Source: Terriglobia bacterium (lineage in GTDB: Bacteria > Acidobacteriota > Terriglobia > Bryobacterales > Bryobacteraceae). From it: DNA of 64,000 bases. The notes below the pieces were generated by a model that worked only from the letters and a program-made list of their open reading frames with translations, was not told where the DNA came from and ran no database searches. Where the stretch lies: assembly GCA_025350105.1 (NCBI GenBank), contig JANXYJ010000154.1, positions 1 to 64,000 of the forward strand. Reading direction: 5' to 3'. Shown piece by piece: positions 1,948 to 8,186 of this stretch. A program made the position numbers and the translations under genes. Numbering within the stretch: the stretch's first letter is position 1; each line of letters starts with the position of its first letter.

Positions 1948-3543
1948 TTACACGCCCCAGCAATAATCCTCAACCGCTTTTTGAATATGGGGATCTTCTT
2001 CGTTGAAGCGCATCAGTTCCAGGCGCATGGCGTCCAGTAATGCGAACCAGCTGGCTTCGATCACGTTTTCGGAAACGCCGACCGTGGCCCAGCTGCGTTT
2101 GTGATCGGACCATTCGATGAGCACGCGCACGCGGGCGGCTGTGCCTTTCTTGAAATCGAGCACGCGGACTTTGTAGTCGGTCAACGTGACGCTGGCGATC
2201 GCCGGATATAAAGTCGATAAGCACTGGCGCAGCGCAAGATCCAGCGCATTCACCGGACCGTTGCCAGTGGCGGAAGCCGCCAGAATATTGTCGCGAGCTT
2301 TCAGGGTTACGTTGGCGGTGGATTGCGTTGCACGCGTCACCACTTCGTAGCTGACTACGTCGAACAGATGCAAGCCGGGGCGCAAAGCCTCGCGGACTAG
2401 CAGTTCGAAAGTTCCCTCCGCCGCTTCCAGTTCGTAGCCCTGGAATTCCATCTGCTTCATGCGTTCCAGCAACTGGCGGCGGGCTTCGTCATCCAAACGG
2501 TCTTCCAAGCCGTGCTGTTTGAGTTTATAAAGGATACTGCCTTTCCCGGAAAGGTCGCTGAGCAAAACACGCTGGCGGTTGCCCACGGTTTTGGGGCTGA
2601 TGTGTTCGTACGTATTAGAATCTTTCAGCACCGCACTGACGTGAACTCCCCCTTTGTGAGCGAAGGCACTGTGACCAACATAAGCCTGATCGCCGCGCAG
2701 GGGCAGGTTGGCCAGTTCCGCGATGAAGCGCGCGGCTGCGGTCAGGCCCATCAGCTTTTCTTTGCCGATGGTGTTATGACCCATCTTCAATTCCAGGTTG
2801 GCGATGATGGTGGTTAAGTTCGCGTTGCCGCAGCGTTCGCCGTAACCGTTCATGCAGCCTTGCACATGAGCGAAGCCTTGTTCAATCGCCGCCAGCGCGT
2901 TGGCCACCGCCAATTCGCAATCGTTATGGGTGTGGATGCCAAGAACGCCCTCGAAGTTCTTACGCACATCGGCGCAGATTTCCGAAAGCTGGGCAGTCAT
3001 GGTACCGCCGTTGGTATCGCATAACGTCAGCGTATCGGCGCCGGCCTTCAACGCGGCTTCCAGTGTGCGAAAAGCAAAATCGCGGCTGGCTTTGTAGCCG
3101 TCAAAAAAATGTTCGGCGTCGTAAACCACTTCCTTGCCGTGGGCTTTCAGATAACGCACGGTGTCGGAGATCAGCGCCAGATTTTCTTCCTCGGTGATGC
3201 CCAACGCCCGGTGCACATGCAGGTCCCAGGTCTTACCGAAGATGCAAACCACGGGCGTATTGGCTTCCAGCAGCGCATTGACGCTGACATCGTCCTCCAC
3301 TTTGTTCTTGGCCATCCGCGTGGAGCCGAAGGCGGTGAGGCGAGCGTGTTTAAACTGAATGTCCTTAGCGCGCGCGAAAAAATCCTTGTCTTTGGGATTG
3401 GAGCCGGGCCAGCCGCCTTCAATGTAATCGATGCCTAAATCGTCCAGCTTGTGAGCAACCAGAACTTTGTCGTCCGAGGACAGGCTGACGGCTTCGCCCT
3501 GAGTGCCGTCGCGCAAAGTGGTATCGAAAGTGAATATGCGCAT
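1948..3543 (-). CDS. cimA: (R)-citramalate synthase
   Basis: 531 residues of the citramalate synthase branch of the LeuA / homocitrate synthase family, which condenses pyruvate and acetyl-CoA to citramalate, the threonine-independent entry to isoleucine. Visible features are the N-terminal catalytic motif DTTLRDGTQGE (residues 7-17), GGWPGSNPKD (about 43-52), the metal ligands HTHND, and GYGERCGNAN. A C-terminal LeuA-type regulatory domain (about 400-525) is expected to bind isoleucine. The wide-type 'GGWPGSNPKD' motif separates it from 2-isopropylmalate synthase. It is the last gene of the minus-strand ilvB-ilvH-ilvC-cimA group, 138 bp behind ilvC. A palindromic repeat lies in that gap. Its last 152 bp were duplicated downstream. 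Confidence 0.93.
   Translation of the reverse strand: MRIFTFDTTLRDGTQGEAVSLSSDDKVLVAHKLDDLGIDYIEGGWPGSNPKDKDFFARAKDIQFKHARLTAFGSTRMAKNKVEDDVSVNALLEANTPVVCIFGKTWDLHVHRALGITEEENLALISDTVRYLKAHGKEVVYDAEHFFDGYKASRDFAFRTLEAALKAGADTLTLCDTNGGTMTAQLSEICADVRKNFEGVLGIHTHNDCELAVANALAAIEQGFAHVQGCMNGYGERCGNANLTTIIANLELKMGHNTIGKEKLMGLTAAARFIAELANLPLRGDQAYVGHSAFAHKGGVHVSAVLKDSNTYEHISPKTVGNRQRVLLSDLSGKGSILYKLKQHGLEDRLDDEARRQLLERMKQMEFQGYELEAAEGTFELLVREALRPGLHLFDVVSYEVVTRATQSTANVTLKARDNILAASATGNGPVNALDLALRQCLSTLYPAIASVTLTDYKVRVLDFKKGTAARVRVLIEWSDHKRSWATVGVSENVIEASWFALLDAMRLELMRFNEEDPHIQKAVEDYCWGV
1955..2106 (-). repeat. parent copy of the duplicated cimA tail
   Basis: The in-gene copy of the direct repeat at 1627-1779. 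It encodes the C-terminal ~50 residues of citramalate synthase. The two copies are 328 bp apart start to start and face the same way. Confidence 0.92.
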
Positions 3544-3681: not shown

Positions 3682-4752
3682 TTACGCGCCGGGAATGCCC
3701 GCTTCCTTTTTCTTTTTCAGGAACGGCATCATCTTGCGCAACTCGGCGCCCACCTTTTCGATGGGTTGATTCTGCGCCGCTTTGCGCATGGCCAAAAACT
3801 TCTTGCGGCCTTTTTTGTTTTCCGCAATCCAGGCCTTAGCGAACTTGCCGGACTGAATTTCGTGCAGAATTTTCTTCATTTCCGCGCGGGTCTTTTTGTT
3901 CACGATGCGCGGACCACGAGTGTAGTCGCCATACTCCGCGGTGTCCGATACCGAGAAGCGCATGTAGCCCAGGCCGCCTTCGTAGATCAAATCGACGATC
4001 AGTTTCAGCTCATGCAGGCACTCGAAGTACGCGATTTCGGGCGCGTAGCCGGCATTGGTCAAAGTTTCAAAACCAGCGCGAATTAATTCGCTAACCCCGC
4101 CGCACAGCACGGCCTGCTCGCCGAACAGATCGCTTTCGGTTTCTTCTTTGAAGGTGGTCCCGATCACGCCCGCTTTCAAGCAACCCAGCGCCATGGCGTA
4201 CGCCAAAGCGTTGTCCAGCGCCTTGCCGGATGCGTCCTGATGAACGGCCACCAGCGCGGGCACACCCACGCCTTCGGTGAATAGTTCGCGCACGCGATGA
4301 CCCGGGGCCTTGGGCGCGATCATCGAAATGTCCACGTCCTTGGGCGGCTTAATGGTCTTGAAGTGAATGGAGAAGCCGTGCGCGAACATCACGGTTTTGC
4401 CCGAGGAAAGATTAGGCTCGATTTCCTTCTTGTACAGATCGCCCTGCAGGTGATCGGAGACCAGAATCATCATGACGTCGGCAGCCTTGGCTGCTTCGCC
4501 GGTGGTCATCACGCGCAGGCCGGCTGATTCCGCTTTTTCCCAGCTCTTGCTGCCTTCATACAAACCGACGATCACTTTCACACCGGAATCGCGCAGGTTC
4601 AACGCGTGGGCGTGACCCTGGCTGCCGTAGCCGATGATGGCGACGGTTTTGCCTTTCAATAGCGAAAGATCGCCATCCTGTTCGTAATAGCGCACCGCGG
4701 CTTTGCGTTTTTGCGCGGGCTTCTTGGTCTTGCTGGTTGCCTTTTTGGCCAT
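3682..4752 (-). CDS. ilvC: ketol-acid reductoisomerase (NADP+)
   Basis: Second step common to valine, leucine and isoleucine synthesis: isomerisation and NADPH reduction of acetohydroxy acids to dihydroxy acids. 356 residues, class I. A Lys-rich N-terminal extension of about 20 residues ([14 protein letters not shown]) precedes the Rossmann motif [13 protein letters not shown] near residue 42. The conserved [11 protein letters not shown] and [12 protein letters not shown] motifs carry the Mg2+-binding acids and the catalytic lysine region. A short Lys-rich tail follows. The start is ATG with a GGGAG ribosome binding site about 12 bases upstream. It sits between ilvH (50-bp gap holding a small hairpin) and cimA in the same direction. 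Confidence 0.96.
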
Positions 4753-4802: not shown

Positions 4803-5333
4803 TTAAATTAACGGTGCCTCAACTTCTTTCGGCACCGGTGGCGCCAAGCGTAGTTTCTTATTATCCAGTGACACCACTACTAAACCGGAACGCGTGACTT
4901 CAATCTCGCCGTAACTGCGCATCACGTCGATGAATTCGTCCAGCTTTTCGGGGTCGCCGGTGGCTTCCAGGGCAAAGCCTTCCACCGAAGAATCCACGGC
5001 GCGGGCGCCGAAAATCTCGGCTTCCTTTAAAATGGCCGTGCGATTCTGCATGGTGGAACGAACCCGCACCAGCGCCATTTCGCGGCGCACCGCTGGGCCT
5101 TCACTCAGATCACTGGCTTGCAGTACGTTGATCAGCTTGTTCATCTGCTTGATCACCTGGCTGCGTTGATTGGGCTCGACGTCAACCACAATACTCATGC
5201 GCGAAAGCTCTGGGTCCATGGTGCGGGCCACAGTCAGGCTCTCGATGTTATAGCCGCGCGCGCTCAGCAGGCCGGTGACGCGCATCAAGGCGCCCGGTTT
5301 GTTTTCGAGAAGAACGGAAATCAACTGCAACAT
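4803..5333 (-). CDS. ilvH: acetolactate synthase, small regulatory subunit
   Basis: 176 residues. An N-terminal ACT domain (residues 1-75) opens with 'LISVLLENKPGALMRVTGLL' and 'RGYNIESLTVA', the valine-binding signature of IlvH/IlvN. A second ACT-like C-terminal domain (about 85-160) includes 'EIFGARAVDSS' and 'GDPEKLDEFIDVM'. Length is that of a full IlvH type (about 160-180) rather than the short IlvN/IlvM. It activates IlvB and confers feedback inhibition by valine. It starts 86 bp after the ilvB stop on the same strand; a repeat fragment lies in that gap. Confidence 0.95.
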   Translation of the reverse strand: MLQLISVLLENKPGALMRVTGLLSARGYNIESLTVARTMDPELSRMSIVVDVEPNQRSQVIKQMNKLINVLQASDLSEGPAVRREMALVRVRSTMQNRTAILKEAEIFGARAVDSSVEGFALEATGDPEKLDEFIDVMRSYGEIEVTRSGLVVVSLDNKKLRLAPPVPKEVEAPLI

Positions 5334-5419: not shown

Positions 5420-7147
5420 TTACGCCACTTCCACCGGTTGCGGTGCGCCCAATACCATTTCATTCACCGCTCCGCCGGCCGGAACCATGGGATACACGTT
5501 TTCAAAGGGCGAAACCTTCACGTTCAACAAATACGGACCCGGTTCATTCACCGCGTCTTCCAACGCCTTGCGCAATTGGCTGGGGCGCTCCACCGTACGG
5601 CCCTTAAATCCGTAAGCGCCGGCCAATTTTTCGGGTTCGGGGAACGTGTCAAGCTGTACCTGGCTCAAACGATTGTTATAAAACAATTCCTGCCATTGCC
5701 GTACCATGCCCAGGTAGCCGTTGTTCATCACGATGATCTTCACCGGCAGTTGCTGATTGGCAATCGTGGCCAGTTCAGGGATCGACATCTGGAAGCCGCC
5801 GTCGCCGCAAATGGCGAAGACCAATTTGTCGGGCCGGGCGAACTGCGCGCCCAATGCCGATGGCAAGCCAAAACCCATGGAACCCAGTCCTCCTGAGTTG
5901 ATCCACAAACGCGGATGGTTGAATTTGATCAACTGCGCGGCCCACATCTGATGCTGGCCCACGTCACTACAGACGATGGCCTCGCCGCCCGACAGGCGAT
6001 CGATCTCCGCCATCAAATGCTGCGGCTTGATTTCGTCGTTCGAAAAAACCGGCGCCAGCGGATGCAGGCGCTGCCATTCTTTCACTTGGCCCCACCATTG
6101 CGCACGTGCCGGGGCGTTCTTTTCTTTTTGATCCGCCAGCGCGCCGAGTTCTTCCAGGATTTTCTGCAGGACTTTCTTCACGTCGCCGACGATGGGAACG
6201 TCCGGCACGCGGATCTTGCCCACCTCCGCCGGATCAATGTCCACGTGAATCACTTTGGCGTGTGGCGCAAAGGCCGAGAGGCGGCCGGTGACGCGGTCAT
6301 CGAAACGGCTACCCAGTGCGATCAGTAAATCGGTTTCGGTCATCGCCATGTTAGCGGCGTAGCTGCCGTGCATGCCCGGCATGCTGATGAAGTTTGGATG
6401 ATTGGCGGGCAAAGCGCCCAGCGCCATTAGTGTGGTGACGGCCGGCGCGTCGATGGTCTCCACCAGCTTGCGCAGCTCATCGGATGCGCCCGAGTGAATG
6501 ATGCCGCCACCGGCATACACCAGCGGACGATGCGCATCGAGCATCGCCTGCGCCGCGCGGCGCATCTGGCCCGCGTGGCCGTCGGTGTAGACGCGATATC
6601 CCGGCAGGTGAATCGAACTCACCGGCGTGTAATGCCCGTTGGCCGTAAAGCAATCTTTGGTGATGTCCACCAGCACCGGCCCGGGACGCCCCGTGCTGGC
6701 AATGTGGAACGCTTCATGAATGGCGCGCGGCAGCTCCGCCAGATTCTTCACCAGAAAATTGTGTTTGGTGCCGGAGCGCGTGATGCCGAAGGTGTCGGCT
6801 TCCTGAAACGCGTCGCTGCCGATCAGCTTGCTGGTGACCTGGCCCGTGATGGCGACAATGGGAATGGAGTCCATCATCGCGTCTACCAAACCGGTGACCA
6901 GATTGGTGGCGCCGGGGCCGGACGTCGCGCAGCACACGCCTACTTTCCCAGTGGTGCGCGCATAGCCTTGTGCGGCGAACGCGGCGTTTTGTTCGTGACG
7001 CACCAGCACGTGTTTGATGGGCCCGTCAAAAATCGCGTCATACAAAGGCAACGTGACGCCGCCGGGATACCCGAAGATGACTTCCACTTTTTCGCGCTGC
7101 AGGCATTCCAGCACCACTTGCGCACCGCTCATCAGATTTGAAGGCAT
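5420..7147 (-). CDS. ilvB: acetolactate synthase, large catalytic subunit
   Basis: 575 residues; a thiamine-diphosphate enzyme making acetolactate or acetohydroxybutyrate from pyruvate and 2-oxoacids. Domains in order: N-terminal ThDP pyrimidine-binding domain with FGYPGGVTLPLYDA (about 19-33) and the catalytic glutamate in RHEQNAAFAAQGYAR; central FAD-binding-like domain with ALGSRFDDRVTGR; C-terminal ThDP pyrophosphate domain with GDGGFQMSIPELATI and the metal ligand NNGYLGMVRQW. GAGG lies just before the ATG. It is the first structural gene of the operon. It is preceded by a terminator-like hairpin and a Val/Ile-rich leader ORF (7186-7401) that probably control it. Confidence 0.96.
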   Translation of the reverse strand: MPSNLMSGAQVVLECLQREKVEVIFGYPGGVTLPLYDAIFDGPIKHVLVRHEQNAAFAAQGYARTTGKVGVCCATSGPGATNLVTGLVDAMMDSIPIVAITGQVTSKLIGSDAFQEADTFGITRSGTKHNFLVKNLAELPRAIHEAFHIASTGRPGPVLVDITKDCFTANGHYTPVSSIHLPGYRVYTDGHAGQMRRAAQAMLDAHRPLVYAGGGIIHSGASDELRKLVETIDAPAVTTLMALGALPANHPNFISMPGMHGSYAANMAMTETDLLIALGSRFDDRVTGRLSAFAPHAKVIHVDIDPAEVGKIRVPDVPIVGDVKKVLQKILEELGALADQKEKNAPARAQWWGQVKEWQRLHPLAPVFSNDEIKPQHLMAEIDRLSGGEAIVCSDVGQHQMWAAQLIKFNHPRLWINSGGLGSMGFGLPSALGAQFARPDKLVFAICGDGGFQMSIPELATIANQQLPVKIIVMNNGYLGMVRQWQELFYNNRLSQVQLDTFPEPEKLAGAYGFKGRTVERPSQLRKALEDAVNEPGPYLLNVKVSPFENVYPMVPAGGAVNEMVLGAPQPVEVA

Positions 7148-7185
7148 ATGGTCCTCGTATTTACTCTTTCAAAAACGTCTACATA

Positions 7186-7233
7186 AGACAAAAGCCACTG
7201 TCGGAGGGTATGTTCCCCCCGCCCAGTGGCCTT
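7186..7233 (-). terminator. candidate attenuator terminator upstream of ilvB
   Basis: On the minus strand, AAGGCCACTG (7233-7224) pairs with CAGTGGCTTT (7200-7191), ten base pairs including one G-U. The inner part can extend through GGGGGG / CCCTCC. The 3' arm runs into TTTTGTCTT, as in a Rho-independent terminator. It lies 25 bp after the leader peptide stop codon and 38 bp before the ilvB ATG, so it would stop transcription before the structural genes. The left flank of its loop, CCCCGCC on the plus strand (7217-7223), is complementary to the last leader codons (GGCGAGG, 7261-7267), allowing an alternative antiterminator of 7 bp. Confidence 0.72.
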
Positions 7234-7257
7234 GATTCCGTGTAAGAATCGGGCCGT

Positions 7258-7401
7258 TCAGGCGAGGCCGGCTACGACGCCGACCCCAATAATAACGACT
7301 ACCTGAACAAGCTGAATATAAACCGGCTGAATAAAAATGTCAGAGACGAGCTGCAAGCAGGAGCTTGCGGGGAAAGCCTGGTTGGGGTCCGTGAAGTTCA
7401 T
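7258..7401 (-). CDS. ilv operon leader peptide (candidate)
   Basis: A 47-codon ORF reading down from an ATG at 7401 and ending in TGA at 7258. Its C-terminal third is strikingly rich in branched-chain residues: the run LVQVVVIIGVGVVAGLA ends the peptide, with further I, V and L upstream (DIFIQPVYIQ). Eleven of the last seventeen residues are Val, Ile or Leu. Together with the terminator 25 bp beyond and ilvB after that, this fits a ribosome-stalling leader like IvbL or IlvL. Starvation for charged tRNA-Val/Ile/Leu would stall the ribosome and favour readthrough. No T-box sequence is visible. An in-frame upstream ATG at 7491 exists but has poor context. This is inference from sequence; no homologue is recalled. 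Confidence 0.65.
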   Translation of the reverse strand: MNFTDPNQAFPASSCLQLVSDIFIQPVYIQLVQVVVIIGVGVVAGLA

Positions 7402-7420: not shown

Positions 7421-7449
7421 AGGATATAGCAAAAGTTGGGCAAATGCAA
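7421..7449 (-). promoter_or_regulatory. candidate promoter of the ilv leader transcript
   Basis: On the minus strand TTGCAT (7449-7444), a 17-bp spacer and TATCCT (7426-7421) resemble a sigma-70 promoter (4 of 6 matches each). The predicted start near 7414 would give a very short untranslated leader before the 7401 ATG. It lies in the 140-bp gap shared with the divergent regulator gene at 7542. Confidence 0.45.
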
Positions 7450-7541
7450 CATGATAGTTTGATTAGAAATGTTTATAGCCATGAGGGGCATGGTATCATC
7501 GGCTAAAGTGCTGAGCCTATAGCTTGTAGGTGGTCTTAACC

Positions 7542-8186
7542 ATGCCGGAAACGCAGTCTTCTGCAGCCTCCCCGCCCTTCACGCCGATTGCTTCGATTGC
7601 GATTCTGGACGACGACGCCGACTTCCGCAATTATCTGGAAGACTTCCTTACCGACGAAGGCACTTTTAGTGTTCGTGCTTTCGGCAACCCGCGGGCGCTT
7701 TACGATAGCTGCGACGACGACGTGCCCGACATTGTTTTGCTGGATATGAAAATGGGCGAAGCCAGTGGCGACAAAGTTCTGGAACAACTACTCACCCGCT
7801 GGCCTGGCTTGTGCGTGATCATCATCACGGGTTACCCGTCGCTGGAAGATATGCGTCTGACGTTCAAACTGAAGGTCTTCGACTATCTGGCCAAGCCGTT
7901 TTCGCTGGCGCAACTGAGACAGGTTTTGAAAAATGCCGGGGAGGCTTTCGGACTGGGCAAGTCTCCGCAGGACCGTTTGCGCGAGCGCTTGGGTCACGCG
8001 ATAAAGATGTTACGCGTGGAGCGCGATTGGTCCCTAAAAGACCTGGCCACGCACACCAAACTGAGCGTTTCGCAAATCAGCGCGATTGAGCGGGGGACGA
8101 ATCTGCCCAGCATCGAGAGCCTGCTGGCGATTTCGAAAGCGTTTGAGAAAAAACCGTCGGAGATTTTGGTGGGGATTGATTTTTGA
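7542..8186 (+). CDS. response regulator with REC domain and XRE-type HTH
   Basis: 214 residues from the ATG at 7542; an in-frame GTG 12 bases earlier is possible, but AGGTGG is spaced 8 bases from the ATG. Residues 17-130 form a receiver domain: acidic cluster DDDAD (23-27), phospho-acceptor D68 in DIVLLDMK, T96 in IIITGYPS, K118 in YLAKPFS. Residues 150-208 form a Cro/CI-type helix-turn-helix (SLKDLATHTKLSVSQISAIE). Most response regulators carry OmpR, NarL or NtrC output domains, so REC-XRE is uncommon. No histidine kinase is adjacent. It is divergent from the ilv leader and shares the intergenic region, so it could regulate ilv or itself; that is inference. Confidence 0.88.
   Translation: MPETQSSAASPPFTPIASIAILDDDADFRNYLEDFLTDEGTFSVRAFGNPRALYDSCDDDVPDIVLLDMKMGEASGDKVLEQLLTRWPGLCVIIITGYPSLEDMRLTFKLKVFDYLAKPFSLAQLRQVLKNAGEAFGLGKSPQDRLRERLGHAIKMLRVERDWSLKDLATHTKLSVSQISAIERGTNLPSIESLLAISKAFEKKPSEILVGIDF

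Follow-up and report, generated by a model that had tools for sequence, protein, structure and literature searches.

A 47-codon ORF ending in valine and isoleucine codons lies ahead of ilvB in the genome of a Terriglobia bacterium (contig JANXYJ010000154.1), and an initial annotation of the 64,000-nucleotide stretch that we analyzed (positions 1 to 64,000, hereafter the window) had read it, together with a terminator hairpin and an alternative pairing, as a candidate attenuator of the branched-chain amino acid (BCAA) operon. Is this ORF a leader whose translation decides whether the operon is transcribed, or do the ORF and the hairpin have some other explanation?

The operon and its leader

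The genes downstream of the ORF were indeed ilvB-ilvH-ilvC-cimA, all on the minus strand, as NCBIfam equivalogs matched each with its cut-off exceeded: ilvB, acetolactate synthase large subunit (5420..7147, ATG at 7147; TIGR00118, above the curated cut-off), ilvH, acetolactate synthase small subunit (4803..5333; TIGR00119, above cut-off), ilvC, ketol-acid reductoisomerase (3682..4752; TIGR00465, above cut-off), and cimA, citramalate synthase, which leads to isoleucine from pyruvate (1948..3543; TIGR00977, above the curated cut-off). ORFs 1643-1963 and 1970-2224 on the same strand have a long translated stretch in common (SQTQLGHGRRFRKRDRSQLVRITGRH...LGTDALQRRRSPYSKSG), which suggests that the cimA 3' end may have been partly duplicated.

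The 47-codon ORF (MNFTDPNQAFPASSCLQLVSDIFIQPVYIQLVQVVVIIGVGVVAGLA) was present on the minus strand at 7258..7401, with its UGA stop at 7260-7258 and a tail reading GTA GTC GTT ATT ATT GGG GTC GGC GTC GTA GCC GGC CTC GCC UGA. From the sequence and the codon profile relative to the stop, we took GTA GTC GTT ATT ATT (7288..7302, minus strand) as the main control codons; by footprint geometry, a ribosome stalled there would span region 1 and leave region 2 free. Region 1 (UGGGGUCGGC, 7279..7288, minus strand), assigned by folding and the swap test described below, is the 5' arm of a protector hairpin (1:2) in which UGGGGUCGGC pairs with GCCGGCCUCG (7288-7279 with 7272-7263). Region 2 (GCCGGCCUCGCC, 7261..7272, minus strand), assigned by the swap test with region 3, coincides with the last four sense codons of the leader, and within it lies the antiterminator 5' strand CCUCGCC (7267-7261), complementary to GGCGGGG of region 3 (7223-7217) on the loop side of the terminator hairpin. 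This GC-rich hairpin (7191..7233, minus strand; AAGGCCACUG at 7233-7224 and CAGUGGCUUU at 7200-7191) starts 24 nt past the leader stop codon and carries a U-tract, UUUUGUCUU (7185..7193, minus strand), the predicted end of the attenuated transcript. Folding of the stalled state with the terminator incomplete added an inner antiterminator helix (7228..7255, minus strand), in which GGCC (7255-7252) pairs with GGCC (7231-7228) around a GAUUC/GAAUC hairpin, the second GGCC being part of the terminator 5' arm.

The locus thus contains the full classical attenuator set of 1:2, 2:3, and 3:4 pairings, and the 126 nt of the leader end folded at -62.8 kcal/mol (z = -5.2 vs dinucleotide shuffles). All of the parts listed in the initial annotation were found in place; the protector hairpin, the inner antiterminator helix, and a promoter-like element had gone unmentioned there. 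We also saw that the early leader codons GACCCCAA (7389-7382) are complementary to UUGGGGUC (7289-7282) of region 1, possibly an extra alternative pairing within the genus.

The promoter-like element (7421..7449, minus strand) was recognized from the sequence as a -35 TTGCAT (7449-7444) and a -10 TATCCT (7426-7421) separated by 17 nt, and it predicts a transcription start at ~7414, upstream of the leader ORF. The evidence for it is its consensus: at 73 of 87 loci TTGCAW-N15-19-TANNNT lay no more than 420 nt from the first gene, vs 2 occurrences in 128 kb of window sequence (both strands). A start downstream of 7258 had been named in the initial annotation as grounds for rejecting its reading; the conserved promoter-like element lies instead upstream of the leader ORF. 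Divergent from the operon is a gene (7530-8186, plus strand) whose product has a receiver domain and an HTH-like C-terminal part, and its intergenic region is common with the ilv promoter.

Conservation and covariation

A loose scan, run on both strands for ORF tails rich in BCAA codons with a U-tract hairpin, matched the window at the attenuator site only, and the same scan gave ~2 matches per window on block-shuffled windows. Since so loose a pattern is frequent in shuffled windows, a single sequence is not decisive, and it is conservation that decides. We therefore turned to about 90 related genomes, the named relatives being Bryobacterales. An IlvB homolog was present in 61 of the 61 genomes searched, and the leader end with its pairing partner was found in 47 of 50 collected ilvB upstream sequences; both were absent from the other three (L047-L049, other-order genomes). 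The leaders of the relatives were rich in BCAA codons, and their ends kept a fixed position with respect to the hairpins.

For the swap tests we used 40 loci with a clear terminator and compared the pairing of each locus's own arms with that of arms taken from other genomes (5000 permutations). Own arms of regions 2 and 3 paired at -18.4 kcal/mol vs -16.1 kcal/mol when swapped (z -6.9, 0 of 5000 permutations); the 7-bp CCUCGCC:GGCGGGG pairing proposed from the single sequence is real. The other two helices likewise gave 0 of 5000 permutations, at z -5.0 for the protector hairpin and z -10.2 for the arms of the terminator. The antiterminator and terminator tests also held for the genus by itself and for the other genera of the family, and the region 2:region 3 test was not significant in family f2/f3 alone (n=7). 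We relied on arm swapping and not on column counts for region 2:region 3 because MAFFT set region 3 of different subgroups one base out of register. Compensations between these two regions included CUCGCC:GGCGAG, UUCGCC:GGCGAA (L024), CCUGCU:AGCAGG (L050), CCCCU:AGGGG (L026), and, in family f3, CCCCGG:CCGGGG. In the outer stem of the terminator, 8 pairs were kept in all or nearly all of 33 sequences, with several two-sided changes. The leader ORF, its BCAA codons, and the hairpins were in this way conserved and covarying across the family and the order, which is what the initial annotation had suggested looking for in relatives.

Searching 299 genomes of the class with a covariance model turned up the element in 76, including nearly all sampled genomes of the window's family (f1), most of those of the order's second family, and few elsewhere; among the matches outside those two families, two strong ones and one weaker one were also upstream of ilvB. 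In a phylum-wide draw the model matched 5 of 396 genomes, three of them from the window's own genus. Weak matches at L164, L165, L166, and L170-L172 were set aside as terminator look-alikes, being next to unrelated genes with no ilv gene downstream.

T-box and riboswitch-type leaders control ilv genes in some other bacteria, and one of these or another known structured leader might in principle govern the terminator here, with no part for a leader peptide. A ppGpp-sensing riboswitch, for example, is discussed in PMC10272879. Against this, no Rfam family reached its gathering score in the window, permissive Rfam scans of the leader and six relatives returned nothing beyond chance, and the conserved part of the element is the codon run with its pairing partners; we give such a leader hardly any credence.

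The genomes of genus g17 (L039-L043, family f3) bear on where leader translation would act, as they retain the end of the BCAA leader and still pair region 2 with region 3, and a clear U-tract terminator was not seen in them. This is what one might expect if translation of the leader acted via Rho or the ilvB ribosome-binding site and not via an intrinsic terminator, an alternative that we nevertheless judge very unlikely in view of the strong covarying hairpin with a U-tract in the window and nearly all f1 genomes. In one g17 sequence (L040) the leader stop is missing from its usual place.

Leader codons and the separation of cimA

In 73 operons with a linked cimA, the last 18 leader codons held 1-6 Ile and 2-11 Val codons, with only one Ile in 8 of the 73. 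The codon counts leave out L177 and L187, for which the wrong reading frame had been picked automatically. One clade (IlvB tree support 1.0) has cimA outside the operon with its own copy of the attenuator, so that the cimA split represents one evolutionary event. Four stand-alone cimA leaders had 3-5 Ile and 0-1 Val codons (e.g., MLTFLSIGIIIGAGITSPA, L167), and the ilvB leaders of the same clade had 4-7 Val and 0-1 Ile codons (e.g., ...RIVVALFVVVVVGTA, L234). While these Val-rich ilvB leaders are not clearly outside the range of the linked operons, the Val-poor cimA leaders are outside it. As citramalate synthase serves isoleucine synthesis, the leader codons appear to follow the product of the genes they would control, and this tracking of gene content by leader Ile and Val content favors codon-directed control, on comparative evidence from one event.

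Codon choice pointed the same way. At leader positions -20 to -8, GTA made up 52% of Val codons vs 5% in the adjacent downstream genes, and ATT made up 69% of Ile codons vs 23%; GTT showed no comparable rise, so the GTA and ATT enrichment is more than AT-richness. The choice of control codons by their sensitivity to tRNA charging is an idea treated in the literature, and the bias would fit codons chosen in that way. The enrichment of the otherwise rare GTA again favors control directed by the leader codons.

Several single loci deserve mention beside these counts. The stand-alone cimA leaders of genus g40 (L195, L197, L211) have several Leu codons too; we considered leu genes downstream as the reason and rejected it, the neighbors at L195 being quinone reductase, peptidase, accB, and accC. 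The ilvB of genome G222 (L254) has seemingly lost its upstream leader, and the stand-alone cimA of the same genome keeps its own (L211). Another genome has a third attenuator-like element (L168, G030:C1:3638693-3638800); it has a short leader that contains Ile (MSLNRIVIQNAAIIIAAPV) and stands upstream of an ilvH-like ACT-domain gene.

Two further explanations can be weighed against these data. The ORF could encode a small hydrophobic (membrane) peptide with a function of its own, the hairpin being an ordinary terminator that sets it off as a gene of its own, and the Val/Ile-rich tail and a DPNQA-type N-terminal motif conserved within the genus would suit such a peptide. Outside the genus, however, the N-terminal part is not conserved and the length varies. 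What persists is the codons of the tail, the place of the stop, and the way the last codons pair with the terminator, and the second copy upstream of cimA has its codon content switched from Val to Ile; we consider a functional peptide highly improbable. Alternatively, a protein regulator such as the divergent response regulator (7530-8186) might act at the promoter, with the leader adding constitutive partial termination. The position of that receiver-domain gene across the common intergenic region is in keeping with this, and protein control could also act additionally, but as a replacement for attenuation it would leave the alternative pairings, the leader codon bias, and the codon change after the cimA split unexplained, and there is little chance that it accounts for the locus.

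Folding states and proposed mechanism

When we folded the RNA in the stalled state (RNA through region 1 occluded, terminator only partly transcribed), the antiterminator formed in 40 of 40 sequences, and with the ribosome placed at the leader stop the terminator formed in 40 of 40. With the full-length stalled RNA in f1, the terminator was mostly the thermodynamically more stable structure; because the completed terminator is usually more stable, antitermination in f1 would need kinetic, cotranscriptional trapping. In most f3 sequences a strong protector hairpin was not seen and the free RNA favored the antiterminator, so by thermodynamic prediction the default state there would be 'on'.

The element is very probably a ribosome-mediated transcription attenuator of the ilvB-ilvH-ilvC-cimA operon. 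What the computations showed is that the parts are present, that they covary and are conserved, that the leader codons suit the gene content of the operon, and that codon usage in the leader is biased; comparison across relatives thereby lends strong support to the stall-dependent reading of the initial annotation, above all through conservation, covariation, the codons of the cimA-split clade, and the GTA enrichment. From these observations we infer a transcription start, leader translation, stalling, and termination that would proceed as follows. RNA polymerase would initiate just upstream of the leader ORF with a ribosome following it. When valyl- or isoleucyl-tRNA is scarce, this ribosome would stall on the GTA/GTC/GTT/ATT run with its 3' edge covering region 1 (GGGGUCGG), leaving CCUCGCC of region 2 free to pair with GGCGGGG of region 3; the resulting antiterminator would bury the terminator 5' arm, and the operon would be transcribed. 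When charged tRNA is plentiful, the ribosome would reach the UGA, which abuts region 2, and cover region 2, in which case region 3 would be kept in the terminator and transcription would stop near 7185-7191. Were the ribosome gone or never loaded, the 1:2 protector hairpin would also favor termination.

Other acidobacterial families

Scanning ilvB upstream regions elsewhere in the phylum, we found a BCAA leader and a terminator in L257, L259, L264, L265, and L281, and a model search found the same combination at L255 (ilvN-ilvB). These six further acidobacterial ilv upstream regions are unrelated in sequence to that of the window. Most of them show a pairing between the end of the leader, stop included, and the arm or loop of the terminator (e.g., CGGUUCGG:CCGAACCG in L255 and GGAUAAUG:CAUUAUCC in L265), and in a mixed set of ten the own leader-end/terminator pairing was reached in 0 of 20,000 permutations, with L259 and L281 individually weak. 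A broader proposal, that ilv attenuation is phylum-wide in Acidobacteria with the last leader codons and stop serving as the antiterminator strand into the terminator, that the module was duplicated onto cimA (and the ilvH-like gene), its control codons changing from Val to Ile, and that f3 works without a protector and is 'on' by default, is one that we regard as evenly balanced between right and wrong.

Relation to known systems

Most descriptions of attenuation come from Proteobacteria and Actinobacteria. For ilvB, attenuation by a BCAA leader is established in E. coli and in Corynebacterium, and it has been proposed for the ilvB-OMG and Leptospira ilvB motifs (PMC10272879). The E. coli ilvBN (ivbL) and ilvGMEDA attenuators (Hauser and Hatfield 1984, cited in PMC10272879) resemble the acidobacterial element in having a BCAA-codon leader, mutually exclusive protector, antiterminator, and terminator structures, and ilv genes downstream, a likeness of architecture; they differ in that the acidobacterial region 2 is made of the last sense codons abutting the stop, cimA is in the operon, and the host is acidobacterial. 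The Corynebacterium ilvB-II motif/ilvBNC uORF (PMC10272879) and actinobacterial ilvB leaders (PMC1262725) likewise have a BCAA uORF and a terminator upstream of ilvB, although they belong to another phylum and the acidobacterial element has three covarying helices and occurs a second time, on cimA. The ilvB-OMG and Leptospira motifs are also ilvB-associated RNAs found computationally, later reread as BCAA uORFs (PMC10272879); unlike these, the window and six relatives had no Rfam match, in a release that may lack a model for each motif. A caution comes from the Streptomyces ilvB leader, in which mutating the candidate control codons had no effect (PMC1262725); resemblance to an attenuator is thus no proof of how a leader works.

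A 2010 survey notes a function for almost none of the predicted acidobacterial attenuators (PMC2965389). Our literature search for BCAA or ilvB leader attenuation in Acidobacteria or Solibacter found none, with the Lopatovskaya 2010 survey outside its coverage and an earlier prediction therefore possible. The element is apparently a BCAA attenuator of known type in a phylum where it was undescribed, and with it an abundant, little-known soil phylum gains a concrete, testable regulatory RNA. The cimA split, moreover, is a natural experiment that asks whether the codons of a leader track what the genes under its control produce.
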